Under the pieces are notes generated by a model. The model was not told the origin of the DNA and ran no database searches. It saw only the letters and a list, made by a program, of their open reading frames with translations. A program made the position numbers and the translations under genes. A stretch of DNA of 64,000 bases, taken from assembly GCF_001953745.1 (NCBI RefSeq), contig NZ_LWLN01000002.1, positions 62,001-126,000 of the forward strand, given 5' to 3'. Source of the stretch: Natrinema saccharevitans. Its GTDB lineage: Archaea > Halobacteriota > Halobacteria > Halobacteriales > Natrialbaceae. Each line of letters opens with the position of its first letter. The first letter of the stretch is position 1. Shown piece after piece: positions 1-17,652 of the stretch.

Positions 1-1
1 C

Positions 2-675: not shown

Positions 676-697
676 GACAAAGCACGAACTGTCGCTT

Positions 698-1237: not shown

Positions 1238-1240
1238 CGG

Positions 1241-1532: not shown

Positions 1533-1718
1533 GACGATTACAACCGCTGAGCGTGCGCGCTGGATCGAATCCCTCGAGTACTCTATCACGGCCACAGTTT
1601 CAGGATATCGTGAATGATAAGAGAGGCAGCTAGTGGTATAAAGAACCGACTAGTTTGATTAGCTTACAGCTACGTACGTATGGTATAACAAATATCATCT
1701 GGCCTGAATGGCTGGGCC

Positions 1719-2430: not shown

Positions 2431-3117
2431 GTGAAAGCCCCTGGCACGCTCGAGTTCCGCGTCTGGCGAGACGCACGCGTCTCGCTGCCCTTCGCTCGTT
2501 TTACTCGCGAAGACCTCGCTGCGCTCCTCACAGGCTGTGGTGCTTGCGTCGGCGGGGTTCCTCAAGCGCGCCAGCCCCTTTTAATCCCACCCACGTGGAC
2601 TGATCGGGATGCTGTTGCGTTGGTTGCCTGCTCTTGGTATTCGGCCCGCCCCGCTCGCCGCGTGCCGCCCTCCGCGTCGCTCGCGACCGACCATTCCGGG
2701 CTGCGGTTCGCTCCTGGCGTCGCTCACCGTTCCGGGCTAAAATGAATCTGGTCTCGACGCCAGCATTAAGCGCGTTTTCGGTTGCGCCCCTCGCGGGCTT
2801 TCGCGCTGGACACGAACCCGCAGTTCGGGCCGGACACGAGAAACGGCTTAAAGCTGGCCGCTCGCTTCGGGCGGATCGCCGAGACGCTCACACCGTTCGC
2901 GCCTCGAGCCCTGCCTCGCTTCGCTCGGCAGGACGCCGCGCGGTGCTGGTTGGGACACCGCATTCAGGCGCGCTCTCGCTCGCGCCCAGATGGGCGCTCG
3001 CGAAGGCGCGAGCGCGAGCGCGCAGATTGATCTAGTCGGTCGGTGTCGTCGGAAAACCGCGATGCAGGGACATCGCGGTGGCAGGCGCGTGATCGCCTTT
3101 AGAGTTAGTGAACTCCA
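2431..3117. other. hairpin-rich, GC-rich non-coding leader before the OB-fold gene
   Basis: Open frames exist on both strands, but all have the low-complexity Arg/Ala/Ser composition of non-coding GC-rich DNA. The region is full of short inverted repeats: CGAGACG/CGTCTCG at 2467-2484, CCTGCC/GGCAGG at 2910-2932, and a 19-bp imperfect stem at 2968-3023. The words CGCTCG and CTCGC recur throughout. It ends just before the RPA-like gene at 3118, so it may be a structured RNA leader, a protein-binding region or a replication-associated site. Confidence 0.55.
2968..3023. repeat. long hairpin with nested inner hairpin
   Basis: Bases 2968-2986 pair with 3005-3023: 18 of 19 positions are complementary. 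Inside it, GCGCTCGCG (2994-3002) pairs perfectly with CGCGAGCGC (3007-3015), giving two mutually exclusive stems. Both are almost pure G/C, so they would be stable. The structure lies 95 bases before the ATG at 3118. Confidence 0.7.
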
Positions 3118-4014
3118 ATGTCTAGTAATAACTCGAGTAGCAAGGTCGTTACGGTCGATGAACAGGCACTCAAACAGACGGACGAGCAGGCGGTCGATGA
3201 AGACTGTTTCCCGGTCGTCGACGAAACGCCGGAATTCGAGGCAACGGTCGAACAAGAGGTCCAAGCAAAGGTGGATGCGAACCACCCAGACGGAATCGTC
3301 GATACGAGCGACGACCGGATACACGGAGCCACCCTCGAACAACAAGAGCGCATTCGGGCACGAGAGGATGAGCTCGAGCGGATCAGTGCCCAGGCCGAGA
3401 TAGGAACGCAAGAAGGTCGAGAGAAGCGGACGCGAACGATCGCTGCGAACCAGAACAAAGCGCGGCGTGTGGAATTCCAGAAACGGGCGGCGAGCGTGGA
3501 CCCAATGGCGGACCCGGAGCGGGCGGATCCTCGTACAGAGCTCTCTCGAGAGCAGTTGGCGGCCGTGAACAAACAGTCGATGCGACTCGCGAAGGAGTTG
3601 GATGGCTGGTCTCGAGCAGCGATCAGCCGGCGGTTAAGTGAGGCCGTCGTCGGTGGTCAGGACTTGACGAGTGCAGTCGTCAACGTGTTCGAGGAGTTGC
3701 AGACGGCGCCCGGACACGTTATCCCCATTGTAAAACTCGAGGAGGTCTCTCGGAAGGAGGCGAGCATCGAAGGGCGTGTCGAAACCCTGTGGGATCCCTC
3801 ACATCCGAGCATCGCGCAGGTTGGTCTCATCGCAGACGATAGTGGCCAGACACGCGTGACGATCTGGAAGTCCTCAGACGCGCCGTGGATCGAGGAAGGT
3901 GAGCAAGTGCGCATTCACAAGGCTGCCCGGAACTGGCACGAAGGTCGTGTTTCACTGGCCGTGACCGGGTGGTCGACGATCCACTTCCCCGGGCGCGGCC
4001 GCTGGTGGGAATAG
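3118..4014 (+). CDS. OB-fold (RPA/SSB-like) DNA-binding protein of haloarchaeal plasmid type
   Basis: A 298-residue acidic protein. Residues 1-110 are charged and helical, with probable coiled coil (RIRAREDELERISAQAEIG). The middle (AISRRLSEAVVGGQDLTSAV) is helical. The last about 95 residues form an OB-fold of the replication-protein-A kind: VETLWDPSHPSIAQVGLIAD, TRVTIWKSS, GEQVRIHKAARNWHEG and a final GRGRWWE. Relatives are common on haloarchaeal plasmids and near integrated elements. The expected role is binding single-stranded DNA. A hairpin-rich 600-base region precedes it and a T-run follows the stop. The OB-fold assignment rests on motif reading. Confidence 0.75.
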   Translation: MSSNNSSSKVVTVDEQALKQTDEQAVDEDCFPVVDETPEFEATVEQEVQAKVDANHPDGIVDTSDDRIHGATLEQQERIRAREDELERISAQAEIGTQEGREKRTRTIAANQNKARRVEFQKRAASVDPMADPERADPRTELSREQLAAVNKQSMRLAKELDGWSRAAISRRLSEAVVGGQDLTSAVVNVFEELQTAPGHVIPIVKLEEVSRKEASIEGRVETLWDPSHPSIAQVGLIADDSGQTRVTIWKSSDAPWIEEGEQVRIHKAARNWHEGRVSLAVTGWSTIHFPGRGRWWE

Positions 4015-4025
4015 CCGAAGCAGAC

Positions 4026-4040
4026 CCCTTTTTTGCTGGT
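4026..4040 (+). terminator. T-run terminator after the OB-fold gene
   Basis: Six consecutive T residues (4029-4034) follow a C-run 14 bases after the stop at 4014, as in intrinsic archaeal termination. The rest of the interval to 4334 holds short inverted GC repeats (around 4080-4130) and no gene I can support. Confidence 0.5.
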
Positions 4041-4334
4041 GTGAACGCAGTCACCGCCACCTCCCACCACCTCCACGGTCCGGGCTGCTCACGGCCAGTG
4101 GCCGCTGCGCTGCCGGGCTTTCGCCAGAGTGTGAGTCCAATCCCTGACGCTTCCATCATCTAGAGCAAACGTTGCGACCGGCACACTCACTGCATAGCCA
4201 GTCATGATAGCAGGCAATTTAATCATCAATAGGGAATGAGAGTCCCATTGCTTGGCGAGTGAGAGTTGTATTACGAAGTCGTGAGTCCAGTAATAACAGC
4301 CCTTATCTAGTGGTGAGACCAACGTAGTATTGTG

Positions 4335-4718
4335 ATGGACGCACAAAACAAATCGGATAGTCAGATGGGGTCGCTCACCCGACTCCAGTGGCTCGCAGTT
4401 GTGTTAGTCGCGATTACTGGCGTGCTACACGTGTTTGCTGGCATCATCGAGGGGCGGGTTCCCGTGGCACTAGCAGGCGTTGGTTATGCCGGCGCGCTTG
4501 TACTGTTTTTCCTTAACTACCGACGCCGTCTCCTCTACCTCATCGGCGTCCCGTATACGGCCGTTCAGATCCCGATTTGGCTCGTGGCCAAGTCGGAATA
4601 CGGGGTGGTTGACTACGTCGACAAGGCGGTTCAGGTCGTCTTGATCGTCGTGTTAGTTTACCTCTATCTGAACACGCCAGCTGAACCAGCCAAACCCACG
4701 GCAACGCCAGCAGACTGA
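4335..4718 (+). CDS. small four-helix membrane protein
   Basis: A 127-residue hydrophobic protein with four likely membrane spans: about residues 14-35 (LQWLAVVLVAITGVLHVFAG), 41-60, 66-85 (LLYLIGVPYTAVQIPIWLVA) and 93-112 (AVQVVLIVVLVYLYL). The GTG directly before the ATG is possible as a start but less likely. It resembles a haloarchaeal family of unknown function. The downstream NikR-like gene is convergent, so they are not an operon. Confidence 0.7.
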   Translation: MDAQNKSDSQMGSLTRLQWLAVVLVAITGVLHVFAGIIEGRVPVALAGVGYAGALVLFFLNYRRRLLYLIGVPYTAVQIPIWLVAKSEYGVVDYVDKAVQVVLIVVLVYLYLNTPAEPAKPTATPAD

Positions 4719-4747
4719 ACGACAGTATTTGCTATCTTCCGCCGCTC

Positions 4748-5137
4748 TCAGTTATCTCTGATGACCATGGTTTTTACCCGGTTCACGCCATCGAAATCAC
4801 GAAGGCGGTAGGTCAGTTCTCGGACCCGCTCGCCAGCACCCTGACAGAACAGCGACTCGAGACACCACTCCCCCTGGTGGGTGTGACTGGTATTGAGGAT
4901 CACGTCTTGATACTCGTGTTGGACACCGTGGAGTTCCCCGATTACCTCGTGATGCCGGTAATCGAAGGCAACGAGTGCGATGACATCATCCGTCAAGTCC
5001 TCGAGTTGTGAATACGATTCGATGTACTCCTGCATCGCTTCACGGACCGCTCGTGATCGATTGGCGAGTCCTTCATCTTGCCAGACCTGATCGAACTCTT
5101 CGACAACTGCGTCTGGGATATTGAAGCTCGTTCGCAT
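4748..5137 (-). CDS. nikR: NikR-like ribbon-helix-helix metalloregulator
   Basis: A 129-residue protein. The N-terminal ribbon-helix-helix (MRTSFNIPDAVVEEFDQVWQ, then RSRAVREAM) is followed by an ACT-like metal-binding domain. The four high-affinity nickel ligands of E. coli NikR have counterparts here: His in VQHEY, two His in TSHTHQG and Cys in EWCLES. I chose the internal Met at 5137 because the ribbon strand starts there; an upstream start at 5164 would add nine residues. It lies 60 bases downstream of the MFS gene on the same strand, so the two are probably one operon. It likely represses or senses through Ni(II) or a similar ion. Confidence 0.8.
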   Translation of the reverse strand: MRTSFNIPDAVVEEFDQVWQDEGLANRSRAVREAMQEYIESYSQLEDLTDDVIALVAFDYRHHEVIGELHGVQHEYQDVILNTSHTHQGEWCLESLFCQGAGERVRELTYRLRDFDGVNRVKTMVIRDN

Positions 5138-5197
5138 AGATTTCTGTTCGTCGCCCTTGTACAAGAGTTCTGAGTAAAGCGATCCCCCAGTTCGGCA

Positions 5198-6427
5198 TTA
5201 ACTCGGTCCTCGTTCAATAGGTGCCTCCCAGAGCAAGATCCCCGTCGAGCTGATGATGAGGATGACACCGGCCACTGCGAGAGCGAACAATGGAGTGACG
5301 ATGTCAGAGATAATGCCACTCCCGAGTTGGAAGGGGACAACTGCGAGTCCGCTGACCATCGCCATCGCGCTGAGAACAGTCGCACGTCCCATCGTCTCAA
5401 TCCGGTCGTTGATGTACTGGCTAGCGAACGACCGTGTCACATCAGAAAGTCCGCGAACCAGCAGGAACGTCGGCAAGGCAAGAACCGGGACAAAATACAT
5501 CCCCACCAGTGCTCCGCCGACGACGAAGGGCAGCCCTAGGAACCACATTCGCAGTCCGAGACGGTCGCGAATCGCACCAGTGTAGTAGCTCAGCCCTGCG
5601 CCGAAGAGACTATACGCCGCGTAGAACCATCCAAGCAGGGATTTAACCTGCGTCTGCGACACACCAAAGTCGAGAACGACTGTCTCGAAAATCGGCTGGA
5701 GAAACACGAACACGAGGTACGTCACCGCCGCATAGAGGACATAGTAATACAGCACGAACGCCCGTATGTTACGCTGTGAGACCGTCCGACGGATCATCGA
5801 GAGTGTCCGCCGAAAACTCAGGTCCGTGGTGTCGGCTTGTTCGTAGGTTTCAGGTTCGTCGATCGTCAGGAGGACGAACACACCGATTGCCGTCACTGTA
5901 GCAGCGACGAACCACGGATATGACAGGTCAATACTCCCGAGATAGCCACCGATAATCGCCGCACCTGCGCCAATCGCCAGTGAAACGGACTCTCCCCGCC
6001 CACGGACGTGTGCGAATTCGTCTTCCGAGAGGTCATCCGTGAGCGTATCATACAGCCAGGCATCTTCGCTTCCTGAACGGAAGTTGTAACCTGTCGACCA
6101 GCACACGTACAAGGCCACAAGGGCCCCGAAGGAACTGGACAGCCCGATCCCGAGCAGTGTGAGTGAAATGAGGGCGGTTCCGATGAGGAGACTGTTGCGC
6201 CGACCAACACGGTCACCGATATAGCCTGTTGGAATCTCCCCCAGCAGCGTCGTCAGATTGTATACCGCTTCAACAATGGCGATCTGCGTGAAGGTGAGTC
6301 CTTGGGCAAGAAAGAAGAGATACATAATCGGCCGGTAAAACTCGACCGCTTTTGTCGATTTATAGAGGTAATATTTCAGAACGCTTGGAGAGGGAAGATC
6401 AGAGGGATTCCGAGACGGAACGGCCAT
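5198..6427 (-). CDS. MFS transporter
   Basis: A 409-residue protein with about 12 hydrophobic segments. The typical MFS loop 2-3 signature is visible as GEIPTGYIGDRVGRRNSLLI, and the second half repeats it more weakly (YTGAIRDRLGLRMWFLG). It belongs to the drug/solute facilitator type lacking large loops. It is first in an apparent operon with the NikR-like regulator, which suggests export or import of a metal complex or chelator, but the substrate cannot be read from sequence. Confidence 0.85.
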   Translation of the reverse strand: MAVPSRNPSDLPSPSVLKYYLYKSTKAVEFYRPIMYLFFLAQGLTFTQIAIVEAVYNLTTLLGEIPTGYIGDRVGRRNSLLIGTALISLTLLGIGLSSSFGALVALYVCWSTGYNFRSGSEDAWLYDTLTDDLSEDEFAHVRGRGESVSLAIGAGAAIIGGYLGSIDLSYPWFVAATVTAIGVFVLLTIDEPETYEQADTTDLSFRRTLSMIRRTVSQRNIRAFVLYYYVLYAAVTYLVFVFLQPIFETVVLDFGVSQTQVKSLLGWFYAAYSLFGAGLSYYTGAIRDRLGLRMWFLGLPFVVGGALVGMYFVPVLALPTFLLVRGLSDVTRSFASQYINDRIETMGRATVLSAMAMVSGLAVVPFQLGSGIISDIVTPLFALAVAGVILIISSTGILLWEAPIERGPS

Positions 6428-6828
6428 ATCGGATATGGATACCCTGGTAAAATGGTTGTTGTGTTATGATCACTCTGGCGTTTCGTAATACTGCTGTACC
6501 GAATCGTGAGAGCTGTTCGTCAGTATCCAAGATTCAGAGTCGATTTGAAGGGCTCTGTTGAAGAGCGGTGCTGGCCAGGGCAGTCGAAATTTGAGTCGGC
6601 TTGTCACCGGTTGACGCTAGTGGTTCCAAGATTGATGTCGCTTCACCTTGGCTCAGAGGCTGCTATTCAACACGGCAATTTGAAGTCGCTTCCAATTTAC
6701 TCATTCGGCTGAAACAATACCCACAGCGTCGCTAAACCCCCGTAGTCTCAACTTCCCACCAGAGAAGTTTCTGTGCCCCGTGAGTGGGGTGAGGGGCAGT
6801 CAGAGTTGTTCATTGCCCTTCTAACACC
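6428..6828. other. intergenic stretch with a possible small inverted-repeat element
   Basis: No gene is supported. Between about 6550 and 6680 the words GTTGAAGAGCGG and, inverted, CTGCTATTCAAC stand about 110 bases apart, which could be the ends of a miniature element. The match is short and no target duplication is visible. Confidence 0.3.
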
Positions 6829-7014
6829 ATGACCCTCAGAGAGATCTACCAGACAACATTCGACGAAGACGTCCAGCCCAACTCGAGCGCCAGTCCGTGC
6901 CCCAACTGCAACGGACGGGTGACCACCAACGCAGTCGAAATTCGTTGTGAAGACTGTGGGCTCCTTATCGAACCGCAACACTACCAGGCACAGAAAAGAG
7001 TCAATCCCACTTAG
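6829..7014 (+). CDS. orphan TFB-type zinc ribbon
   Basis: A 61-residue protein resembling only the N-terminal part of haloarchaeal transcription factor B: EIYQTTFDEDV, then CPNCNGRVTTN and CEDCGLLIE. The two CxxC pairs would bind one zinc and contact RNA polymerase. The two cyclin-like core domains of TFB (about 200 residues) are absent; the protein diverges and stops after LIEPQHY. It could be a truncated tfb remnant or a small protein that competes with full TFB for polymerase. It has its own ATG after a likely promoter region. Confidence 0.65.
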   Translation: MTLREIYQTTFDEDVQPNSSASPCPNCNGRVTTNAVEIRCEDCGLLIEPQHYQAQKRVNPT

Positions 7015-7089
7015 ATAGAATGCCATTGGGGAAAATTACACAAGTATTAAAACAAGATATTTACTAGAGTAACAACATAGATTTGGATA

Positions 7090-7227
7090 ATGCCAGAATG
7101 TGATTGCTGTGGCTCTCAGGTCACCGAGAACTACTACCGGGTTTTCGCCGTTGATGGTGATCTGCCAGCGTGTATCCATTGTACCAGCAACCGTGAAGCT
7201 CGAGAAGCAGGACTTCGCCAGCAATAG
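7090..7227 (+). CDS. small zinc-finger protein, haloarchaeal DUF7563 type
   Basis: A 45-residue protein, MPECDCCGSQVTENYYRVF followed by CIHCTSNREAREAG. Two cysteine pairs make a single zinc-binding knuckle. Many haloarchaeal genomes carry close relatives starting MPEC and about this size (family number from memory). The ATG is 76 bases after the previous gene and is preceded by an AT-rich segment suitable for a promoter. Its function is unknown; a DNA- or protein-binding regulator is plausible. Confidence 0.7.
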   Translation: MPECDCCGSQVTENYYRVFAVDGDLPACIHCTSNREAREAGLRQQ

Positions 7228-7309
7228 CGTCTCAGTGATCTCATTTCTAGATCTTCTTTACCGGACTGGGACCTGATCAAGACGCGAGACAACACGATCC
7301 ACTAAGCCA

Positions 7310-8194
7310 ATGACTGACCGAGATTCTGACTTTGAGGAGCTTCGTCCGACCGGCGAAGCGTCGCATATCCCAGACGAGACACCCAGCGAAGATGATGACG
7401 GTAAGCCTGATCGACAGCGAGTTGCGACGGCGACGGCTGGGTATCCAGGCACTCCAACGGAAACAGACACCGAGTGTCGGTCCTGTGGCGCACCGATCCC
7501 AGCTGACCGGACCAAATGCCTGTTCTGTCTCACCAACAATCTCGAGGACTGCTCTTCTAAGACAAACGCACCAGCAACAGAGTGGACACTCCTCGGTGTC
7601 GTCCACATGCTTGTTGAGTCGTCGACGTTCTACGGCGCCGTCGCGAAAGGCGCGGCTGCTGCGACGCTCCTTGCCTCGAATGCGACCGAACAGGCTGTCG
7701 ACGACTGCACGATCATCTACGATTTCGAGGACGAGCCTGCAGCCCAATTGACCGATCGGTGGCCTGTACTACCCGATGCAGTACGGATCTCATCCACTGA
7801 CGGTGAGCAGCTTTTCGCAGCGGCCCATGATCGAACAGCGTGGACTGACCAATCAGCGGTGGATAGTGACCACGAACCCACAACGTATCTCTACGACGAA
7901 GGTGGAACTGGCATTCGCGACGAGCAGCGGCTTGCGACGTTGCTCGACAACGCCGGCGATGATGCGTGGTTAGTCCCCGCAATTGCTCTCCAGCAGACAG
8001 CTGACGAGCGTGAACCCGAGCATCAGGACAGTTGCATTCCGACCAAACAACGCCTCGAGTGCCACCAGTGCGGACGCACAACCGATCATCGATTCAGCGG
8101 TCATGAATCAGTTCCCGACGAAACCTGGACCGGCCACGCAATCGGGGAGTGCCAGGTCTGCGGGACGCCGCGCTATGGGCCGTGCCCAGAATGA
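7310..8194 (+). CDS. zinc-ribbon protein of haloarchaeal mobile elements
   Basis: A 294-residue protein of unknown function. The N-terminus (1-50) is acidic and disordered. A first zinc pair set lies at CRSCGAPIPADRTKCLFC. The centre (TEWTLLGVVHMLVESSTFYG through IYDFEDEP) is globular. The segment YLYDEGGTGIRDEQRLATLL through WLVPAIAL is related to the C-terminus of the protein at 10893. A second zinc ribbon closes it (CHQCGRTTDH and CQVCGTPRYG). The architecture suggests nucleic-acid or protein binding. The related gene at 10893 is followed by a separate zinc-ribbon pseudogene, which suggests that this protein is a fused version of that pair. Confidence 0.6.
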   Translation: MTDRDSDFEELRPTGEASHIPDETPSEDDDGKPDRQRVATATAGYPGTPTETDTECRSCGAPIPADRTKCLFCLTNNLEDCSSKTNAPATEWTLLGVVHMLVESSTFYGAVAKGAAAATLLASNATEQAVDDCTIIYDFEDEPAAQLTDRWPVLPDAVRISSTDGEQLFAAAHDRTAWTDQSAVDSDHEPTTYLYDEGGTGIRDEQRLATLLDNAGDDAWLVPAIALQQTADEREPEHQDSCIPTKQRLECHQCGRTTDHRFSGHESVPDETWTGHAIGECQVCGTPRYGPCPE

Positions 8195-8212
8195 CTTGCT
8201 CCGCGTCATGTC

Positions 8213-8254
8213 TTAACCAACAGACGGCGATGGTGCAGCGTGGCTGTTGGTTAA
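8213..8254. promoter_or_regulatory. long-spaced dyad TTAACCAACAG / CTGTTGGTTAA
   Basis: TTAACCAACAG at 8213-8223 is matched exactly by its reverse complement at 8244-8254, with 20 bases between. A near-identical arrangement is found at 12730-12770. Both lie upstream of small plasmid-type genes, so a shared regulator binding two half-sites about three helical turns apart is likely. Confidence 0.6.
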
Positions 8255-8317
8255 CAGAACGGTCGCCCGTGCTATCGTGTCATGTTTGTCTGCGCCGCGA
8301 TCGGCTGAGGCGATTCA

Positions 8318-8506
8318 ATGGACCCACGAAACACACCAGGATACAGACTGCATCGTGCACTCAGCCAACTCAACCATCTCGAGGGCAATCAACTGACTGA
8401 CGCAGACAGAGACCGAATCGAGGCAGCAACGGCGCTCTTGGAGGAAGTGAGTCTTCTCACTCGACCAGAGCGTGGTGAACCTACTGATACCCACAGTAAC
8501 TCCTAA
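8318..8506 (+). CDS. small hypothetical protein
   Basis: A 62-residue helical, acidic protein starting MDPRNTPGYRLHRALSQLNH. The central segment DADRDRIEAATALLEEVSLL is amphipathic. I recognise no domain. It lies 64 bases after the TTAACCAACAG dyad and may be controlled through it. Composition fits a real haloarchaeal gene. Confidence 0.5.
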   Translation: MDPRNTPGYRLHRALSQLNHLEGNQLTDADRDRIEAATALLEEVSLLTRPERGEPTDTHSNS

Positions 8507-8704
8507 CCGAGCATGTCATAAAACCGATCACAGGTCTATTGGACTCTGTAGTGAACGGTCAGTACAGGTGAGCGATGTAACGGAGCTGGTAGCAACATAC
8601 TCAATTCCTGTCGCAAGTGCCGTGCAAGACTTAGAGAGTGAAGTTAGCACACTTCGTGTGTTATATCAGGTTGAATTAGATGTTCGAATGGACATGCAAA
8701 TCGG

Positions 8705-9460
8705 TTAATTTTCAACGGGTGCGTCAAATTGGGGAAGGATCACCCGTTTGTAAAAGACAAAATAGGTGACCGTGACGAAAAGATACAATGCACTTATCAA
8801 CAGAGGTGGCCAGTCCAGTACAAAAATCAAAAACACGGCCCAAAACCCACCTAACACGACACCACCAAGCGAAATGATATGCAGTCCCTCTGTAGACTGA
8901 ACTTGTAGGTCGTTGCCAGTTGTCAGCCGAATTCCAATCATTCCGACTGTAAGAGATGCCCACGTGAGAATCGGGAGTCCGACTACCGTCCAGACGGTTG
9001 CTGGCAACTGATCGGATGTGCTGATGAGTATTGCCCAACCGAATAAACCGAGTCCGGCCCACGCAATACTCCGTAGGAACTCTTCACGGAAGATCAGATG
9101 GACTCGTGGATGATGTAGGAATTCATAGAGTGGGTTCCCTGTCTCGGCCGACTCTCGGTTCAGTGCCTGCTTTCCTTCTGGTGAGAGCGGCCACTCTGAT
9201 TCCGGATGGTTGATGTAATACAGAGTCAGTGAGTCGGCAAGCGTTTCTGTTGCGATAATCCCGTGTTCTTCCAGTTCGTCCAACCGATTGCGGACAGTGA
9301 CCTTCGAGACATCTGGTTTGATCTGCTGTTGAATCTGCTGTAGTGAAAAGAATGGCCGATCGGACTGATGCATTGTCTCAATGACGTGCCGTTGCGTGAG
9401 CTTCGTATTCACCCTCCTGTTTTCCGGCAATTGCTCAGAGATCCATGGAGGGAGTGACAT
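8705..9460 (-). CDS. winged-helix domain fused to a four-span membrane domain
   Basis: A 251-residue protein. Residues about 20-75 are a winged helix (TQRHVIETM, SLQQIQQQI, VSKVTVRNRLDELEEHGII). From about residue 125 four hydrophobic spans follow, beginning IFREEFLRSIAWAGLGLFGW. This makes it a membrane-tethered transcription-factor-like protein. The next gene upstream on the same strand (9555) is a copy of just the membrane half. Signal sensing at the membrane with direct DNA binding is the natural inference; the ligand is unknown. Confidence 0.65.
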   Translation of the reverse strand: MSLPPWISEQLPENRRVNTKLTQRHVIETMHQSDRPFFSLQQIQQQIKPDVSKVTVRNRLDELEEHGIIATETLADSLTLYYINHPESEWPLSPEGKQALNRESAETGNPLYEFLHHPRVHLIFREEFLRSIAWAGLGLFGWAILISTSDQLPATVWTVVGLPILTWASLTVGMIGIRLTTGNDLQVQSTEGLHIISLGGVVLGGFWAVFLIFVLDWPPLLISALYLFVTVTYFVFYKRVILPQFDAPVEN

Positions 9461-9554
9461 CTGTTGTTCACAAACCGTCAGAGAAATATGGACGTTTCGG
9501 ATTGGAAGACCAGTCTGCTGGTCCTGGCCTGAAGTCGCTGTCCCCGAGAAGGGA

Positions 9555-9965
9555 CTACGTCGTCATTGGAGTGTCAACGGTATCTGATCCCACGAACCAG
9601 TACCAGAGGACGGTAATACCAGTCACGGCGACATACGCGGCAATAATCCACAGAGCAGAATACCCACCTGCTGTGACAAGATACACTGCGCCGACGCCGC
9701 CAAGCACGATCCCGAAAAGGAGGCTTATCGAGAGACCAACCGGAGTCTGAACCTGTAACTCTGTGGATGTCGCAACGCGGACGGCGATCGCGCCTGTCGT
9801 CAATAACGCCCACGTGAGCGCGGGTAGGCCAAAGACCGTCAGAGCCGTCGTATCTAACCACGCTACCTCCGAAATCACGATTGGCCATCCAACAATTCCG
9901 AGACCAATCCACGCGATACTTCGCAACAGTTCTTCCCGTATGATACGCCGTAGTTGTGGTTTCAT
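9555..9965 (-). CDS. four-span membrane protein, paralogue of the 8705 membrane domain
   Basis: A 136-residue protein aligned along its full length with the membrane half of the protein at 8705: IIREELLRSIAWIGLGIVGW versus IFREEFLRSIAWAGLGLFGW, and TELQVQTPVGL versus NDLQVQSTEGL. It lacks the winged helix. It lies 94 bases upstream of that gene on the same strand, so the two form a tandem duplicate and probable operon. They might associate in the membrane. Function unknown. Confidence 0.65.
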   Translation of the reverse strand: MKPQLRRIIREELLRSIAWIGLGIVGWPIVISEVAWLDTTALTVFGLPALTWALLTTGAIAVRVATSTELQVQTPVGLSISLLFGIVLGGVGAVYLVTAGGYSALWIIAAYVAVTGITVLWYWFVGSDTVDTPMTT

Positions 9966-10315
9966 ATCTACAGGTCGACCAAGGATTGCTGCTCATAAAG
10001 CAACGTTGAGAATTTTGTGTCTGAATGGTGGAATTTTCCGGGCGGAAAACGCACTTTGCGTCTGCAAAGGCAGGTTCTGAGGCTCTTTCGGAGCAATCTC
10101 TCGTCTTGGCGATGATTCGATGAACTTGATTTGGATTCCTCTATCGGTGCGAGATACGCGTTCTATATTGCACAACTCCAAGAACATTTACCGTATCTGG
10201 CAGAACCCACACTGGTCGGTTCGCATACGCAGTTACCGGTTAGTACAGCACGGAGAGTTAGTGATCAGTACGGCCTAACGATTACTATGTAGGCAGCATA
10301 CGCAGAACTACAAAC
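9966..10315. other. intergenic stretch, no gene supported
   Basis: A 64-codon open frame on the minus strand at 9993-10187 has no recognisable motif. The region must contain the promoters of the flanking divergent genes. The word pair GGAATTTTCCGGGCGGAAAA near 10030 is a weak inverted repeat. Confidence 0.4.
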
Positions 10316-10546
10316 ATGACCAATAGAGTGAACGAGTATCTGCGGAAACGGCCTTTTCTTGGCACAGCGTTTTTTCTACTGATGTTTGTCAGTGGCAGTA
10401 TCATGTGGATAGCGATAATGCAGCCGTCTCGTCCGCTATTCTCAATTTTATCCGATGGGGGAGTCTGGTTTACTATTGGCCTACTCGCAGCGCCCTCTGG
10501 ACTGGTCTATTTTATCGTTTCGAAGCGGACTCACTCGCAGACCTGA
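10316..10546 (+). CDS. small two-span membrane protein
   Basis: A 76-residue protein with two clear hydrophobic spans (FLGTAFFLLMFVSGSIMWIA and WFTIGLLAAPSGLVYFIV) and a short basic tail (SKRTHSQT). It starts with ATG preceded by an AT-rich segment. No family recognised. Confidence 0.55.
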   Translation: MTNRVNEYLRKRPFLGTAFFLLMFVSGSIMWIAIMQPSRPLFSILSDGGVWFTIGLLAAPSGLVYFIVSKRTHSQT

Positions 10547-10892
10547 TTGAGGAGAGACCTTCCAGTCAATACGCACATCTACTTGCAGCTGCTTCAATCA
10601 AAAGGGGGGGTGAAGCAAACCACTTGCGCGTCTGTCTGTCATATGCTCCCTAACCAGCAACTCCACTCGAGGCAGAGGTGCAAGTTTCCGAAGGCACCCG
10701 CAGCCAATTCGAAGCTGTTGACGAGTTGAGCGACCTGACGATCGCTGTCGATGCTATTATCCATCCGGATCGCTCTACTCCATGAGACAGACGCGTTCCA
10801 ACAGTGATTTTGTGCGCCGAGAATGGCTGCCGGCGCACTGAGTAAGAACAGACGAGTACTGACCAGAGCGTCGGCACAGTGAGGTATCCCAG
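10547..10892. other. intergenic stretch, nothing recognised
   Basis: Only short frames without motifs occur here. A CTCATTGAGT-type or other clear operator was not seen. It probably contains the promoter of the 10893 gene. Confidence 0.4.
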
Positions 10893-11393
10893 ATGCATAT
10901 GATCATTTACGCACTGGTAGAGGCATCGACAGCAGACGAGGCACTGTCAACCGGAAAGACCGTGTTCGACCGACTGGTTGGCGCAGAGCCGCATTCCTGT
11001 GCAGTGTTCGACTACTCCGTCACCTTCGACGAAGAGGAGACGACAGTGGCTGGAAAAGCACGGTGGGGCGACCTGCCGACGGCTGCGCCCGTTATGTCCG
11101 ACGAAGGTGAAGAACTCCTCGAGCGGGCCTGGGAGACCACGACGGAAACGTTCCAACGAAATCTGGATCGGGTGAAGAAAGCACTCGAGGAACGCAGCGA
11201 CGATGAGATCATGCGCGATGAGGGCCTCGCTCGGCACGCCTTCCAGCAGGTCGGTGCTTCCCGTGGCCCGTCGATCTGCCTGTATGATCAACACGCGACA
11301 GGCATCCGCCATCGCGGACATCTCGATCGCCTCCTCGAGGACACTGACGAGCGCGAGACGTGCTGGATCGTGCCGGCAGACGTCCATTTCTGA
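10893..11393 (+). CDS. haloarchaeal plasmid-type protein of unknown function
   Basis: A 166-residue protein starting MHMIIYALVEASTADEAL. It has an acidic centre with a helical stretch (RNLDRVKKALEERSDDEI). The C-terminal 45 residues (ICLYDQHATGIRHRGHLDRL to CWIVPADVHF) are related to a segment of the protein at 7310. A zinc-ribbon pseudogene starts 7 bases after its stop, so the two were once an operon. In the 7310 protein the equivalent parts are joined in one chain. No catalytic motif recognised. Confidence 0.6.
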   Translation: MHMIIYALVEASTADEALSTGKTVFDRLVGAEPHSCAVFDYSVTFDEEETTVAGKARWGDLPTAAPVMSDEGEELLERAWETTTETFQRNLDRVKKALEERSDDEIMRDEGLARHAFQQVGASRGPSICLYDQHATGIRHRGHLDRLLEDTDERETCWIVPADVHF

Positions 11394-11399
11394 GTGACC

Positions 11400-11764
11400 A
11401 TGCCTCGAATCACCAACTGGACACGTGAGAGTCGAACACCCACGCAGGCATATCGAAACACGGAGACTGGAGCGCGAGCAGTCTGCATCGTGCCCCGAAC
11501 TCCTACGCGTACAAGTGGCGGGCAGCGATCCTCGTCGACGGCTATCCAGTGTGGTCGCGCGGCTTCGAGACAAAAGAAGCGACCAGTGTTCGGGATGCAC
11601 TCCGGGACCGACCAGCCCCCGAACTCGCTTGTCCGGAGTGTCCGAACGACAACGTCATCGTCGGCCAGAAATCTGCGGATGGTGCGAAGGTCTAACGATG
11701 GTTTGACTGTCCCAACTGTGGCTACGAAGCTCCTTCCCAGATCGTCTATGGCGCAGAACGCTAA
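11400..11764 (+). pseudogene. zinc-ribbon protein gene with frameshift and nonsense mutation
   Basis: It begins MPRITNWTRESRTPTQAYR in one frame. Near base 11490 the reading must move one frame to continue as NSYAYKWRAAILVDGYPVWS and CPECPNDNVIVGQKS. A TAA at 11693-11695 interrupts this second frame, after which RWFDCPNCGYEAPSQIVYG continues to the normal stop at 11764. The CPEC/CPNC pairs make a zinc ribbon. Two independent lesions argue for a real pseudogene rather than one sequencing error. Intact length would be about 120 residues. Confidence 0.7.
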
Positions 11765-12646
11765 CAGCTGGTGAGAGCGCAAGCTAATCGCTCAGAGTAA
11801 CCATGTGTCTCGAGGTAGCGGAGCAAGGCGTCGATTTCGTCTTCGAGGCCATACTTCACCGCCTGCTCTCGGAGGGCCGCCTCGTCGATGTCGATGTGGC
11901 TGAGCAGGAGGAGACAGTACGAGCGGTGGCGGCTGCCGTCGTCGATTAACAGTGTGTGACAGCAGAGCTCCGCCGGCGAGACTGCGTCGAGGTCCTCGGA
12001 GTAGACGTAGTAGCGGTGGCCGGTAAGCAGAAACTGGAGGTCGAAGGCCGCGAATCGAGCGAGGCCGGTTTCGTGGAACGCCTCTGCGTCGATCTCCGTC
12101 TCGGTCTGGGTGAGGAATTCGTCGTAGTCCTCCCAGAGAATCGTGCCCTTCGGGGCGACGGCTTCGAGGCGTTGACGATGCAGATGGTGTGCGAGTTCAC
12201 GGGCGAACTCGTGGAGGCGGTCGAAATCGGCGTTGAAGTCATAGCGGCCGTCGGCCGTCCCGACAAGCCCACGGTCACGAAACCGCTTGAGGACGCGGTT
12301 GACCGTGTTGCGGTAATTGTCGCTTCGGTCGGCGATCTCGGAGACGGTTCGCGGCTGGTTGAAGTAGAACAGCACCTCGAGTGCCTTCCCGGTCAGCAGT
12401 TCGGGGAACTCGATGTGGGAGTGCTAGCGGACGAGGTCCCGATAGAGTTCGACGGCACGAGCATCCGACGGGACGACTTGTTTTCGCCGGCCATCGCGTT
12501 CCGTGTAGACGAGCCCCCTTCTCGACGAGGTCGCCGACGGCACGAGAGAGGTAACTCTCGCTGTGGTCGAACTTCGTCGCGAGTTCGGAGATCGTGTCGC
12601 CGCGGTCGACCGTGGCGAGGACCTCGAGTTCGATGCGCCGGAGCAC
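11761..12646 (-). pseudogene. double winged-helix regulator gene with frameshift and nonsense mutation
   Basis: The frame starts at 12646 (MLRRIELEVLATVDRGDTIS, winged helix 1, HSESYLSRAVGDLVEKG). A run of five G on the minus strand near 12513-12517 has one base too many; skipping it continues as LVYTERDGRRKQVV. An in-frame TAG at 12424-12426 follows. The rest is intact: KALEVLFYFNQPRTVSEIA, a second winged helix (NYRNTVNRVLKRFRDRGLV), then a C-terminal domain with FDLQFLLTGHRYYVYSEDLD. The whole would be about 295 residues. Its stop overlaps that of the convergent pseudogene at 11400. Confidence 0.75.
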
Positions 12647-12660
12647 GATGTAACATAGTA

Positions 12661-12686
12661 CGAAACTTATATATAAAGAAGTTTCG
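12661..12686 (-). promoter_or_regulatory. TATA box inside an 8-bp dyad (operator of the 12646 regulator)
   Basis: CGAAACTT (12661-12668) and its exact inverse AAGTTTCG (12679-12686) flank a TATATAAA-type core. The site lies 15-40 bases upstream of the ATG at 12646. A regulator bound here would block TBP, which suggests self-repression by the now broken winged-helix protein. Confidence 0.6.
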
Positions 12687-12729
12687 AGTAGTGTTACAGT
12701 CAGCAGGCACGAGAGCCGTCTCCACCGTC

Positions 12730-12770
12730 TTAACCAACAAAACTATCGATTCGTGGGACGTGTTGGTTAA
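12730..12770. promoter_or_regulatory. long-spaced dyad TTAACCAACA / TGTTGGTTAA
   Basis: Two exact inverted 10-mers separated by 21 bases, 14 bases before the ATG of the gene at 12785. Same half-sites as at 8213-8254, with total length one base shorter. It lies between divergent genes and overlaps the expected core promoter of 12785. Confidence 0.6.
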
Positions 12771-12784
12771 CACGAGAGTAGCCG

Positions 12785-13105
12785 ATGTCCTACGAACCCC
12801 CGACCCTACCGGCGAATCTCCCGACGGAGGTCGTCAACACGCTCAACGAGTCGGACCCGGAGCAGTTCCGAAACGTTGCTTTGTACGCTGAAGCGCTCGC
12901 CGAGCACAAGGAACGAGAGGCTCGTCTCGAGGAGTCGGCAGATCAAGAAGAGGTCGAAGAGCGACCAGACGATCTTCCGGACGACGTCCCTGCCAAAGCA
13001 ACGATCGCGATCAAGGAGATCAACGACAATCGCTACTACTGGCAGTGGCGGGAGGGAGCGAAGATTCGTTCTCAGTACAAGGGTCCGGTCAACCCGGACG
13101 AGTAA
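12785..13105 (+). CDS. DUF6788-type small haloarchaeal protein
   Basis: A 106-residue acidic protein. The N-terminal part is helical (LPTEVVNTLNESDPEQFRNV, then charged EHKEREARLEESADQ). The C-terminal 40 residues (IAIKEINDNRYYWQWREGAK and IRSQYKGPVNPDE) match a conserved haloarchaeal domain I know as DUF6788 (from memory), often found beside mobile elements. It may bind nucleic acid through the aromatic/basic tail. The TTAACCAACA dyad lies directly in front, and origin-like repeats follow its stop. Confidence 0.7.
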   Translation: MSYEPPTLPANLPTEVVNTLNESDPEQFRNVALYAEALAEHKEREARLEESADQEEVEERPDDLPDDVPAKATIAIKEINDNRYYWQWREGAKIRSQYKGPVNPDE

Positions 13106-13126
13106 AACTCGATGAGGGAGGACACC

Positions 13127-13145
13127 CACCCCACGTTTCCGTCGT
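13127..13145 (-). repeat. ORB-like box 1
   Basis: Reads ACGACGGAAACGTGGGGTG on the minus strand. All 19 bases are identical to box 3, which lies in opposite orientation. Confidence 0.6.
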
Positions 13146-13187
13146 AACTGGATGTGGGTGGAGGGGGTGCGGCTGATTTCGAAGGGA

Positions 13188-13210
13188 CCACACCCCCGCG
13201 TTTCCGTCGT
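13188..13210 (-). repeat. ORB-like box 2
   Basis: Reads ACGACGGAAACGCGGGGGTG on the minus strand: the same core as boxes 1 and 3 with a longer G-run. Confidence 0.6.
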
Positions 13211-13238
13211 TTCTCCACGACGGCGTAGGGAGAGGCTA

Positions 13239-13350
13239 CAGTTAGTAGTATACAGTCACTAATTATGTTAGCCTAAAATTAATATAAGATGAATTAACTT
13301 CTGGAATACATAGATTAAAGTAGTATAGCTAGAAAACTTTCATTAAGTGT
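13239..13350. other. AT-rich candidate DNA unwinding element
   Basis: About 110 bases rich in TA, TTA and AAT words between ORB-like boxes 2 and 3, in a GC-rich genome. No gene or promoter pair explains it. Confidence 0.5.
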
Positions 13351-13365
13351 ACTTCGACCAACGAG

Positions 13366-13385
13366 GGGGCGAAGTACTTCGCCCC
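13366..13385. repeat. 20-bp perfect palindrome
   Basis: GGGGCGAAGTACTTCGCCCC is its own reverse complement. It lies inside the putative origin, just right of the AT-rich stretch. It could be a protein site or a cruciform-forming element. Confidence 0.7.
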
Positions 13386-13510
13386 TCAGATGAAACAATC
13401 CTTTCCAGTTGCTTCTATAGACGGCCAACTTTGGACGGCTAGGCCGCTCTCGTCTTTGTAATCTTGTCGTGGACGTCTTCTTCGAGTCCCTCCCCACCTG
13501 TTCAGTGATT

Positions 13511-13533
13511 ACGACGGAAACGTGGGGTGTGTG
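13511..13533 (+). repeat. ORB-like box 3
   Basis: Reads ACGACGGAAACGTGGGGTG plus TGTG on the plus strand, inverted relative to boxes 1 and 2 and about 300 bases from box 2. Confidence 0.6.
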
Positions 13534-13772
13534 GGTTCTGGATTCGACATCGAGGCGACCAACGAAGCGCTTCGAGAACAACTCAGCGACTGTCAGGAGA
13601 CACTCGAGCGTCGTGAGCAGTCTTCGAACCCCGAGATGGATGAGACTGGGTGCTGGTGAAGACGACTCGATCTGGGGCCGTGCACGGCGGTTCGTCGGGG
13701 ATAACAACTGAAGTCCGTTCCAAAGCACTCTGACGGGTTTATCGACTCCCCGGAGGGGTGAGGCGTTCAACG

Positions 13773-14027
13773 ATGACTGCAACCAACCAGACAGATGACC
13801 ACGGCATTGTGTGGTTAGACGAACCACTCGAGGAGTGCGGGCATGATCCGATTCCAGCGACGATTGGTTCGACTGGATCACCAATCGACTGCTCGAGATG
13901 CGGCGCATCAGGCGTACTGATCAATCACTATGCAGAAATTCAAGCAGAACTGCATTCGACGGCGCTAGACGAGGATACATTAATGACGCTGCCGACCGAG
14001 TATGTAGCTAGAACCCATGGCAACTGA
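13773..14027 (+). CDS. small hypothetical protein with a CxxC motif
   Basis: An 84-residue acidic protein starting MTATNQTDDHGIVWLDEP. CGHDPIPATIG and CSRCGASGV offer three cysteines and a histidine that could bind zinc. I preferred the ATG at 13773 over the in-frame GTG at 13758. Its 3' end overlaps the start of the UPF0175 gene by 11 bases, so it may be the first gene of that operon. Confidence 0.55.
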   Translation: MTATNQTDDHGIVWLDEPLEECGHDPIPATIGSTGSPIDCSRCGASGVLINHYAEIQAELHSTALDEDTLMTLPTEYVARTHGN

Positions 14028-14247
14028 TCGCCACAATCCCCATGCCGATCACACTGAGGAGCTCGCGACCACGATCGGGCTCTACGTGCTCGGTGAAATC
14101 TCCCTAGGGAAGGCTGCAGAGCGGGCTGATGTCACCCGCTGGGAGATGAAAGAGATTCTCACTGAGGCCGGTGTTGAGATTCGACTTGGCCCACAGACCA
14201 TGGACGATCTTGAGGATGAGGTCGAGACAGCACTCGATATCGAATGA
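14017..14247 (+). CDS. UPF0175-family antitoxin
   Basis: A 76-residue protein with the UPF0175 core: ATTIGLYVLGEISLGKAAER, then DVTRWEMKEILTEAGVEI. This is a small helix-turn-helix-like fold, found as the antitoxin partner of DUF3368 PIN proteins. Its stop overlaps the toxin start in ATGA at 14244-14247, which means tight co-translation. The acidic tail (DDLEDEVETALDIE) probably covers the toxin active site. Confidence 0.85.
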   Translation: MATDRHNPHADHTEELATTIGLYVLGEISLGKAAERADVTRWEMKEILTEAGVEIRLGPQTMDDLEDEVETALDIE

Positions 14248-14777
14248 GTGAGTCGTTTTCGCCGCCGGTCATTCTTGATGCAACAGTGTTGAGCAACTTC
14301 GCGAGCACTGAGTCGGTAACGTGGCTTACGTCGGTACTTGAGAACCTAACGACTGTTCCTGCCGTTGAACAGGAACTTCAACGCGGTACCGAGAATGGGT
14401 ATCCGTATCTTGAGAACGCACTCGAGGCCATTGAGACTGGACAAATTCCTCTCGAGAAGAGTGCAACAGAACAACTCGAGCAAGCGTATCCAACGATTCG
14501 AGACCAACTCGATCTAGGTGAGGCAGAGGCATTCGTTGTTGCCGATAGAACTGGTGGCACACTCGTGACCGATGACAGTGCAGCCCGAAACCTTGCTTCT
14601 ACATACGAGATTGAACTTACGGGTTCTATTGGGATACTCGTTCGTGGTGTTGTACGGGAGGATCTCACTGTCGAGACAGCTGACAGTTGGCTCACAACCT
14701 GGATTGATGAATGCAGTTACTATGCACCAGTTGAGAGTGTCAGTGATGCTCTTCCTGACGAGTATACTCCAGAATAG
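14244..14777 (+). CDS. PIN-domain toxin (DUF3368 type)
   Basis: A 177-residue PIN-fold nuclease. Acidic residues that would bind the metal are in VILDATVLSNF (Asp), the central Glu of VEQEL, LGEAEAFVVA (Glu/Ala-Glu) and VTDDSAARNLAS (Asp-Asp). PIN toxins cut RNA, often tRNA or mRNA. It is coupled to the UPF0175 gene by a 4-base overlap. The last 40 residues (WIDECSYYAPVESV) are typical of the longer DUF3368 members. The pair likely stabilises the accessory segment or plasmid. Confidence 0.85.
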   Translation: MSESFSPPVILDATVLSNFASTESVTWLTSVLENLTTVPAVEQELQRGTENGYPYLENALEAIETGQIPLEKSATEQLEQAYPTIRDQLDLGEAEAFVVADRTGGTLVTDDSAARNLASTYEIELTGSIGILVRGVVREDLTVETADSWLTTWIDECSYYAPVESVSDALPDEYTPE

Positions 14778-14900
14778 CTTCTCTCGCTGTGGTCTCAGCA
14801 GGATTCAAGATTCGTTTCTCACGCAATCCTGTCCCTGAAGTGCACGTTTTCTTTCACCCGTTCTCGGAACGCTTATAGCCTTATACTCAATAATTTCGAT

Positions 14901-15194
14901 ATGTACGATTTGACTGGCTTTCAGCGTGATGTCCTGTATGCAATCGCCGGCCAAGACGAGCCCCACGGGCTTGCGATCAAAGACGAACTCGAGAGCTACT
15001 ACGAGACAGAGATTCATCACGGCCGGCTGTATCCAAACCTCGACGAGGTCGTCGACAAGGGTCTCGTCGAGAAAGGCAAACTCGACAAGCGAACGAACTA
15101 CTACACGATCACTGCCCGTGGTCAGCGCGAACTCGAGGCCCGGCGCGAGTGGGAAGACCAGTACGTCGATGGATTCGACTCGAGCGACGAGTAG
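14901..15194 (+). CDS. PadR-family transcriptional regulator
   Basis: A 97-residue short PadR protein: MYDLTGFQRDVLYAIAGQDE, recognition region KDELESYYETEIHHGRLYPN, wing KLDKRTNYYTITARG and a final RELEARREWE helix. A TATA-like CTTATAGCCTTATA lies 25-40 bases before the ATG. It is the intact relative of the fragment at 1347; the copy at 1719 is more distant. Its own promoter is the likeliest target. Confidence 0.85.
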   Translation: MYDLTGFQRDVLYAIAGQDEPHGLAIKDELESYYETEIHHGRLYPNLDEVVDKGLVEKGKLDKRTNYYTITARGQRELEARREWEDQYVDGFDSSDE

Positions 15195-15494
15195 CTAGCT
15201 CGGCCGGCTATCGGAGGATGGACCCTCCCTTGTCCGAATACGCCGTTTCCTCAGGTGACGCGCGTGGTCGAATTGAACAAATCCTCTCCTCACGAGTCTT
15301 GTTGTGACGCTCCTCGAGTTGCTCGCTACGCTCGCAGCGGTGGGAGGGCTGTGGGTGTCTCACGGATGGGTCTCGGCATGCCCTGCCGAGTGCTACGGCG
15401 AACGTAATCCACCTCCCTCCAGTCGTTTATCAGATACTACCTATGAATAGCAAGGTTACCGATAGTGATATGGTAATATATAGCTAAAAGACTT
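15195..15494. other. intergenic stretch before the IS6 element
   Basis: It contains GC-rich segments with repeated CTCGC words (15290-15350) and a terminal AT-rich run (15430-15490). No gene or clear repeat was recognised. Confidence 0.4.
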
Positions 15495-16235
15495 TTAATA
15501 GATCTGTTTGATAGGCACTATCCAGTTCTGAACCTTCTCAATCGGCGTCTTTCCATCGAGAGCTTGATGCGGTCTCTGATGATTGTAGTAATGCATGAAC
15601 TGTTCAAGCCACTCGCGGACGCTCGACCGACTGCCCACCCACGAGTTATGGAAGCGGTCGATACGCATTTTGAGGGTGTGAAACCACTTTTCGATGGGGT
15701 TTCGGTCGGTATAGTTGACCTGACCGCTCAATCCTAATCGAGCAAGGGCAGTCCGATAGCCGAATTGATCAACGAGAAACTCAGCATCCGAGAGATCGTG
15801 TTTCTCGGTGAGTCGATGGAGAAACGCAGCTGCCGGATCGGTGCCATGCCGCCCAAATAACGCAACATCGAGAATCAACTTTGTCTCGGTGTCTATTGCA
15901 GCGTATAACCAAGACCACTCGCCGTTAATCTTGACAGCGGTTTCGTCAACGGCGACCCGCTTCGGCTGCGCCTCAGGCGGGTCGCGTCCGCTGTCAGCTA
16001 GCCGATGAACCCAGTTCCAAACCGCTCCGTGAGAGCGTTGAACGCCTAATTCAGCGAGAATCGTTGTTGTCTCTCGAAGCGAACAACCGGTCTGATGGAG
16101 GCGGACGGCGAACGCCCTGACGGGCGTCGCCGTCCGCTCGTTCTCCCAAGATTCTTCTAAATCCGTCTCATAACTCTCGCTGAGCAGGTCTGCGAGCATC
16201 AACCAACTCAACAGTACGACCTGCTCACTTCTCAA
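15495..16235 (-). CDS. IS6-family transposase
   Basis: A 246-residue DDE transposase. The N-terminal part has a helix-turn-helix (TGCSLRETTTILAELGV then RSHGAVWNWVHRL). The catalytic residues are visible as VAVDETAVKING (Asp), FLVDQFGYRTAL (Asp) and RNPIEKWFHTLKMR (Glu), with RPHQALDGKTP near the end. It is full length for haloarchaeal IS6 enzymes. The last residues read through the left inverted repeat, so the stop lies just outside the element. It is probably functional. Confidence 0.9.
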   Translation of the reverse strand: MRSEQVVLLSWLMLADLLSESYETDLEESWENERTATPVRAFAVRLHQTGCSLRETTTILAELGVQRSHGAVWNWVHRLADSGRDPPEAQPKRVAVDETAVKINGEWSWLYAAIDTETKLILDVALFGRHGTDPAAAFLHRLTEKHDLSDAEFLVDQFGYRTALARLGLSGQVNYTDRNPIEKWFHTLKMRIDRFHNSWVGSRSSVREWLEQFMHYYNHQRPHQALDGKTPIEKVQNWIVPIKQIY

Positions 16236-16257
16236 ACTGGCTCAACTAGACAGTGCC
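15514..16257. mobile_element. IS6-family insertion sequence
   Basis: The left end reads GGCACTATCCAGTTCTGA and the inverted right end GGCACTGTCTAGTTGAGC; the first 14 positions agree at 12. Length is 744 bases. The flanking 8-mers (GTTTGATA, TCGAAAGC) do not match, so no target duplication is preserved. The transposase gene occupies nearly all of it. It lies at the boundary between the accessory segment and the metabolic region. Confidence 0.7.
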
Positions 16258-16431
16258 TCGAAAGCGATGGTCCGGACAGATGGAGTCGAATACCCAACTC
16301 CATCAGTTGACGCGGTGTCCGCTCACGCTCCACAAAATCCAAATCAATCCAGCCGCTACTACCGGTGAAGCGTGCGATTTCTGCCATGAACCAGCTGGAA
16401 ATCAGCACGCCTCACTTTTTACGCTTAATTA

Positions 16432-16515
16432 TATAGTAGCTCTTGAAACGATTTACACACCGATCACAACGCTGTCCTGCGATCGGGTGGGCATTGACTT
16501 TCAGCGGCTACTATA
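16432..16515. mobile_element. 84-bp MITE, copy 1
   Basis: Begins TATAGTAGCTCTTGAAACG and ends TTTCAGCGGCTACTATA, an inverted repeat of about 16 bases. It matches the element at 42730-42813 over all 84 positions with about 4 differences. It carries no gene. It lies 60 bases before the alcohol dehydrogenase ATG and may influence that promoter. Confidence 0.8.
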
Positions 16516-16575
16516 AACACCACCGCCCGACGTGACCAAACAGTTATCCACAGCGGGCGGTAAGATAACCCTGCA

Positions 16576-17652
16576 ATGAGAGCAGCAGTTTATTACGGAC
16601 AGGAAGACGTTCGTGTCGAAGAGATTGAAGAGCCAGACGGACCTGCTGCAGATGAAGTACGTGTTGCCGTGGAAGCGTGTGGGATCTGCGGTTCGGATCT
16701 TCACGAGTATACGGCAGGTCCGATTTTCGTTCCTGACGAAGGAGAGCCAAATCCGGTAACGGGCGAAGAGCTTCCGGTTCCGATGGGTCACGAGTTCGCG
16801 GGCGAAGTAACGGAAGTGGGTGAAGAAGTGAACACCGTCTCCGTTGGCGATCGAGTGGCAGTGAATCCGATCATTTACTGCGACGAGTGCCAGCACTGTA
16901 ATGCAGGGATGTATCACCTCTGCGAGTCGGGTGGATTCATCGGTCTGTCCGGTGGTGGTGGTGGACTCTCCGAGGAAGTCGTCGTTCCCGAGGAGAAAGC
17001 AATCACGCTTCCAGACTCGGTCCCTACGGAGTATGGCGCTCTTGTCGAACCGTTCAGTGTCGGATTTCATGCAGTCCAGACCAGTGATTTCGCCGCTGGC
17101 GATTCAGTTGCCGTCTATGGAACGGGTCCGATTGGGCTGACGGTGATTCAGGTGCTGCAGGCAGCCGGCGCTGGCACGATCTACGGTGTTGAACCGCAGG
17201 ATTCGCGGCGTCACCTCGCAGCTGAAGTTGGAGCAGATGAGACGATAAACCCGATCGAGACTGACGCAACTGAACACATTACTGAGCAGACCGACGGCGG
17301 CGTCGACGTGGCGTTCGAAGCCGCAGGGATCGAGCAGACGGTTCAGGACGCGATCGCGTCGACCGCTCCCAGCGGGAACATTACGATCGTCAGCATCTTC
17401 GAAGACACCGTCGAACTGAATCCCAACGAGTTCGTCATGGGTGAGCGGACACTCAGTGGGACGCTCGCCTACGAAGGTGGTCCACAGTCGGACGAGGAGT
17501 TCGGTGCTGTCATCGATATGTTCGAATCGGAGGCCCTCGATCCGGAAGCGCTGATCAGCAGTCGGATCGACCTGGAGAATGTCGTCGAAGATGGGTTCGA
17601 GGCACTTCTTAACCCGGAGCGAGAAGCGGTGAAAATTCTCGTCGAACTGTAG
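16576..17652 (+). CDS. zinc-dependent 2,3-butanediol dehydrogenase-like MDR enzyme
   Basis: A 358-residue medium-chain dehydrogenase. Catalytic zinc ligands are the Cys of ACGICGSDLHEY, the His-Glu of GHEFAGEV and Glu of LVEPFSVGFHAV. The structural zinc loop is CDECQHCNAGMYHLC. The Rossmann motif is VAVYGTGPIGL. The long loop after HEYTAGPIF (PDEGEPNPVTGEELP) and the FVMGERTLSGTL segment are typical of (R,R)-butanediol/acetoin dehydrogenases. It would oxidise 2,3-butanediol to acetoin or reduce acetoin with NAD(H). A dihydrolipoamide dehydrogenase of the acetoin type follows at 17926. An 84-bp MITE lies just upstream. Substrate is inferred from family resemblance. Confidence 0.8.
   Translation: MRAAVYYGQEDVRVEEIEEPDGPAADEVRVAVEACGICGSDLHEYTAGPIFVPDEGEPNPVTGEELPVPMGHEFAGEVTEVGEEVNTVSVGDRVAVNPIIYCDECQHCNAGMYHLCESGGFIGLSGGGGGLSEEVVVPEEKAITLPDSVPTEYGALVEPFSVGFHAVQTSDFAAGDSVAVYGTGPIGLTVIQVLQAAGAGTIYGVEPQDSRRHLAAEVGADETINPIETDATEHITEQTDGGVDVAFEAAGIEQTVQDAIASTAPSGNITIVSIFEDTVELNPNEFVMGERTLSGTLAYEGGPQSDEEFGAVIDMFESEALDPEALISSRIDLENVVEDGFEALLNPEREAVKILVEL

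Follow-up and report, generated by a model that had tools for sequence, protein, structure and literature searches.

An ORB array on a 422-kb haloarchaeal replicon is very probably the left half of an Orc4-type plasmid origin, parted from orc4 and most likely silent

A haloarchaeal orc/cdc6-associated replication origin has been defined by inverted ORBs that end in a G string, an A+T-rich unwinding element between them and an adjacent orc/cdc6 gene (PMC3528665). In Haloarcula hispanica, ori regions did not replicate when tested in the absence of their own cdc6, each was specific for its Cdc6, and Cdc6 proteins of this species were able to act in trans (PMC3936714). Likewise, oriC4 of Haloferax mediterranei alone did not replicate, and specificity for the cognate Cdc6 was reported in that species (PMC4595724). 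Deficient or disrupted haloarchaeal origins in variable replicons have also been described, e.g. oriC3-cdc6D of Haloarcula (PMC4441112). An Orc5-clade gene is linked with polB2, and Halobacterium NRC-1 can dispense with orc4 as well as with polB2 (PMC1906834).

The origins most similar to the locus described here are built around orc4, and their layout was read from about 30 fetched regions in which boxes lie beside one Orc gene annotated orc4 (VNG_RS11810 of pNRC200 and relatives 78-99% identical to it). The usual order is a leftward HTH gene, a 106-aa gene, two boxes, an A+T-rich element, a third box, orc4, further boxes and a leftward polB, and some of these origins are without the HTH gene, the 106-aa gene or polB.

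The window, i.e. the whole stretch of 64,000 nt analysed here, comprises positions 62001-126000 of the 421,898-bp contig C2 in a haloarchaeal genome of three contigs. It contains three exact ORBs of the form ACGACGGAAACGNGGGG, two on the minus and one on the plus strand, which agrees with the description in an earlier note on this DNA, and they lie around A+T-rich DNA and a 20-bp palindrome:

13129-13145, minus strand: ORB box 1, an exact ACGACGGAAACGTGGGG with no window-specific changes
13194-13210, minus strand: ORB box 2, with a G run one G shorter than in relatives
13238-13350, no strand: A+T-rich element of 74% A+T between boxes 2 and 3
13366-13385, no strand: perfect 20-bp palindrome GGGGCGAAGTACTTCGCCCC, carried with small differences by intact Orc4 origins
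13511-13527, plus strand: ORB box 3, in the orientation opposite to boxes 1 and 2

Each of the three boxes carries GGGG, and boxes 1 and 3 share an identical stretch, which runs to 21 bases rather than the 19 first counted. Measured against the definition in PMC3528665, the window has the inverted ORB repeats ending in a G string (boxes 1 and 2 on the minus strand, box 3 on the plus strand) and, by composition, the A+T-rich unwinding element between ORBs at 13238-13350, and no orc/cdc6 gene is directly adjacent. As the earlier note had said, no Orc1/Cdc6 gene was found anywhere in the window. Only three exact matches to ACGACGGAAACGNGGGG exist in the 3.98-Mb genome, all of them the boxes of the window, and a reversed-pattern control gave one hit in the same genome even with two mismatches allowed; thus the array is far above chance. 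Moreover, a weight matrix derived from 42 different Orc4-origin boxes was run over the whole 421,898-bp replicon and scored above 10 bits at exactly these three sites (43, 34 and 43 bits). A fourth exact copy of the 12-base core, ACGACGGAAACG, occurs at 11139-11150; lying inside an ORF and having no G run, it was put down to chance.

The window shares its boxes, their orientation and spacing, the A+T element, the palindrome and the 106-aa gene with the orc4 origin of Halobacterium pNRC200 and its relatives (pNATPE02, pHAR02 and GN101 megaplasmid 2), in DNA that is 90-92% identical over 860 bp. This segment, window positions 12700-13559, is 92% identical both to Halobacterium sp. GN101 megaplasmid 2 and to Halorubrum salinarum pHAR02, and the box spacings are 65 and 317 in the window versus mostly 65-66 and 318-321 in intact Orc4 cassettes. 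The homologous left arm of an Orc4-type origin is present with conserved spacing, its HTH gene as a pseudogene. Unlike the pNRC200-type origins, the window has on its right side neither orc4 nor the downstream boxes nor the polB that most of them carry, its HTH gene is broken, and its A+T element is A+T-richer, with 74% A+T; in 13 intact origins, nearly the same stretch has 59-65%.

Among 293 genomes of the order, 65 had the exact box pattern, and none of the genomes listed from this survey had the reversed control pattern. All 39 sampled genomes with an Orc4 (at least 78% identity) had exact boxes, compared with 26 of the 254 remaining genomes (Fisher p about 2e-31). This tight tie between motif and Orc4 origins disposes of the dispersed repeat unrelated to origins that the earlier note had named as its own refutation, and the origin-like array without initiator that it proposed can now be specified, with the motif, spacing and homology of Orc4 origins and with orc4 missing. 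The array very probably represents the left half of such an Orc4-type plasmid origin of haloarchaea, split from orc4 by rearrangement and most likely silent.

Both ends of the homologous segment, and the genes between them, were then delimited as follows:

11786-11800, no strand: left junction, 15 bp matching neither side, with Natribaculum-plasmid homology up to 11785 and Orc4-origin homology from 11801
11801-12646, minus strand: pseudogene of the HTH (MarR-like) regulator of the Orc4 cassette, aligned with the intact Halobacterium GN101 gene
12785-13105, plus strand: conserved 106-aa gene, open; many Orc4 origins have a copy of 89-92% identity in this position
13550-13559, no strand: right junction, 10-bp microhomology TCGAGGCGAC, from a three-way comparison of the window, L134 (an Orc4 origin) and L112 (a Natrinema plasmid)
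13550-13660, plus strand: C-terminal remnant of an NrS-1-polymerase-like plasmid gene, which reaches further upstream in L112

Orc4-origin homology comes to a sharp end at 13559, which is 32 bp beyond box 3 and, judged by relatives, about 170 bp ahead of the orc4 start; past this point orc4, the downstream boxes and polB are gone. The sequence TCGAGGCGAC is common to the Orc4 origin L134 and to the L112 gene whose tail runs on in the window; the upstream part of the latter encodes the HBD domain of NrS-1 polymerase, one frame off from the tail. Because homology breaks at 11785/11801 and at 13559, an Orc4-origin fragment of about 1.76 kb lies here with segments of other plasmids on either side. 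When 84,980 species genomes, among which the closest records to the window's genome may be missing, were searched for an exact match to the right junction, nothing was returned; a misassembly at this 10-bp junction is still conceivable. The earlier suggestion of a relict of an integrated plasmid is supported as to the plasmid relict, a truncated Orc4-type origin, and not supported as to chromosomal integration: the window belongs to a separate contig of 422 kb that has an orc-linked origin of its own.

Within the fragment, the HTH pseudogene has a 1-bp insertion in the C run 12514-12518, an in-frame stop at 12424-12426 and no 3′ end. The 106-aa gene has a 3-base in-frame deletion, and its protein had no Pfam or NCBIfam match. 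In the A+T element, 13 window-specific changes were counted in 111 columns (p = 5e-5 against the rest), which may represent decay after constraint was lost, or a shift favouring melting. That boxes 1 and 3 are unchanged could point to continued service, but by chance alone only about 2 changes would have been expected in them.

About nine Orc1/Cdc6 genes are present in the genome, one of them on the replicon of the window, 178 kb away. A protein search at E <= 1e-170 found no Orc4 in this genome, but one in 43 other genomes; the best Orc of the genome is 53.7% identical to Orc4 (C1:995911). PolB2 was not found in the genome, in a search without a positive control of its own. The single full Orc of C2, at 253 kb, is 37.9% identical to Orc4 and is flanked left and right by boxes of TCGCACACGGGG, an ORB unlike ACGACGGAAACGNGGGG, seven in all. 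Because these seven copies flank the Orc, the 422-kb replicon has another complete-looking orc-linked origin (C2:252.4-254.8 kb), which resembles the Orc4 type in that ORBs lie to the left and right of its Orc gene and a remnant of the 106-aa gene is close by, and differs from it in its Orc family and in its ORB. A partial orc-like reading frame, L012 (C2:246705-247073), lies about 6 kb from this full Orc, near a transposase-like gene.

Relatives of the C2 Orc in two genomes (G125 and G164) adjoin window-type boxes, which had made service in trans by the replicon's own Orc attractive; this candidate was dropped once seven TCGCACACGGGG boxes turned up around the C2 Orc and its relatives proved to be surrounded by that motif as well. 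The earlier idea of a plasmid origin served in trans finds no support for a cognate initiator either, as the genome is without Orc4 and the Orc of the replicon sits among different ORBs. Among the chromosomal Orcs, L001, L002 and L004 lie beside TTTCACCGGAAACACGG, ACAGCGGCACTCCGG and CTGAACGAGGGG, respectively, and L003 beside one loose repeat match with no clear array. The search for Orcs with the ORB variant of the window, also proposed in the earlier note, led to Orcs that adjoin other ORBs wherever repeats were detectable.

In an intact origin, Orc4 would be expected to bind the inverted ORBs, to open the A+T element and to allow MCM loading. A rearrangement would have parted the array from orc4, the remaining boxes and polB, and the fragment would have been joined at the 10-bp microhomology to the replication gene of another plasmid. 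We infer Orc4 binding, this order of events and the present inactivity; the homology, the spacing, the missing parts, the junction, the lack of Orc4 and the different ORB beside the replicon's own Orc were observed. The array is most likely silent in its present host, because the host lacks Orc4 and its 422-kb replicon carries a further complete-looking origin, and it would be inert unless a cognate Orc4 came in trans. If a plasmid-borne Orc4 did arrive, it could be bound, and the array would perhaps fire with it or compete for it.

It is unlikely that the array is an orphan origin still in use, its boxes recognised in trans by another host Orc, even if only as a dormant back-up. In favour of this, Cdc6 is able to act in trans (PMC3936714), the boxes are intact and the A+T element has turned A+T-richer; moreover, L001 and L003 are 51-54% identical to Orc4, and the similarly diverged OrcL102 adjoins the same box type as that of the window. 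However, the host Orcs with detectable repeats adjoin other ORB sequences, the published specificity is for the cognate Cdc6, and a GC-skew signal is lacking: skew along the 422-kb replicon, a check the earlier note had called for, has its minimum at 45 kb and its maximum at 357 kb without exceeding shuffled blocks (p = 0.26), and is uninformative either way. Cross-recognition of these boxes by host Orcs thus looks unlikely, and it stays conceivable because the winged helices of L001 (46% identical to Orc4) and L003 (43%) are no less Orc4-like than that of OrcL102 (41%). We regard as improbable the specific proposal that a non-cognate host Orc fires the orc4-less array, an A+T-richer unwinding element offsetting weaker recognition.

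Two further readings give the boxes another function. The array may have been kept as a sink of binding sites, either titrating an initiator or barring incoming Orc4 plasmids by incompatibility; a separate ORB-rich region lowers oriC2 activity in Haloarcula hispanica (PMC3936714), and half-arrays without adjacent orc4 recur, but the genome holds no Orc4 to titrate and selection on the boxes showed no sign, changes being so few, which leaves this very improbable. Hardly credible at all is that the boxes serve the linked HTH or 106-aa proteins as operators instead of being initiator sites: their form is that of ORBs, ending in a G run, the HTH gene of the window is broken, and origins without detectable HTH or 106-aa genes (L072, L093-L095) are still flanked by boxes on both sides of orc4, even though the HTH gene, the 106-aa gene and the boxes do travel together with different Orc families.

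Left halves of Orc4-type origins (HTH gene, 106-aa gene and ORBs, in part or whole) without adjacent orc4 recur elsewhere, often joined to origins of other Orc families. In L136 and L137 the left half is joined to an Orc that shares about 35% identity with Orc4, in a region with the repeat ACTCGAAAACGGGGGG, and this Orc type is also found in L139, L103 and L080; in L138 (G125) it is joined to a C2-type Orc with TCGCACACGGGG boxes, and in L140 and L141 no Orc was found in 10 kb. On a contig of only 6 kb in G164, of the same genus, three boxes like those downstream of orc4 lie beside a C2-type Orc (L104), which is possibly a reciprocal relict of an Orc4 origin with the other half left. Like Haloarcula oriC3-cdc6D and similar cases (PMC4441112), the origin in the window was damaged by insertion and deletion in a variable region or replicon; unlike them, it kept the ORB array and lost the initiator gene.

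The surroundings of the fragment are also of mixed descent. Those parts of 8700-14900 that were searched match pieces of Natrinema, Natribaculum, Halocatena and other plasmids, and G+C is about 52-60% over window positions 1-17000 compared with about 59-68% for most of the rest. At 14017-14777 on the plus strand, genes for a 76-aa UPF0175 protein and a 177-aa protein with a weak PIN-domain match overlap by four bases, a pair that looks toxin-antitoxin-like, and a Natrinema zhouii plasmid has DNA 94% identical to it. The minus strand at 15495-16235 carries a gene for an IS240-type transposase.

The array in the window is a real feature of a known kind and most likely no new type of origin. It offers a base-resolution view of a haloarchaeal plasmid origin that was broken and then joined to other plasmid DNA, and the half with HTH gene, 106-aa gene and ORBs turns up joined to several different Orc origins. 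The case also cautions against taking an ORB array by itself as the sign of an active origin. Should non-cognate Orcs fire such arrays, the arrays would provide a direct test bed for initiator specificity.
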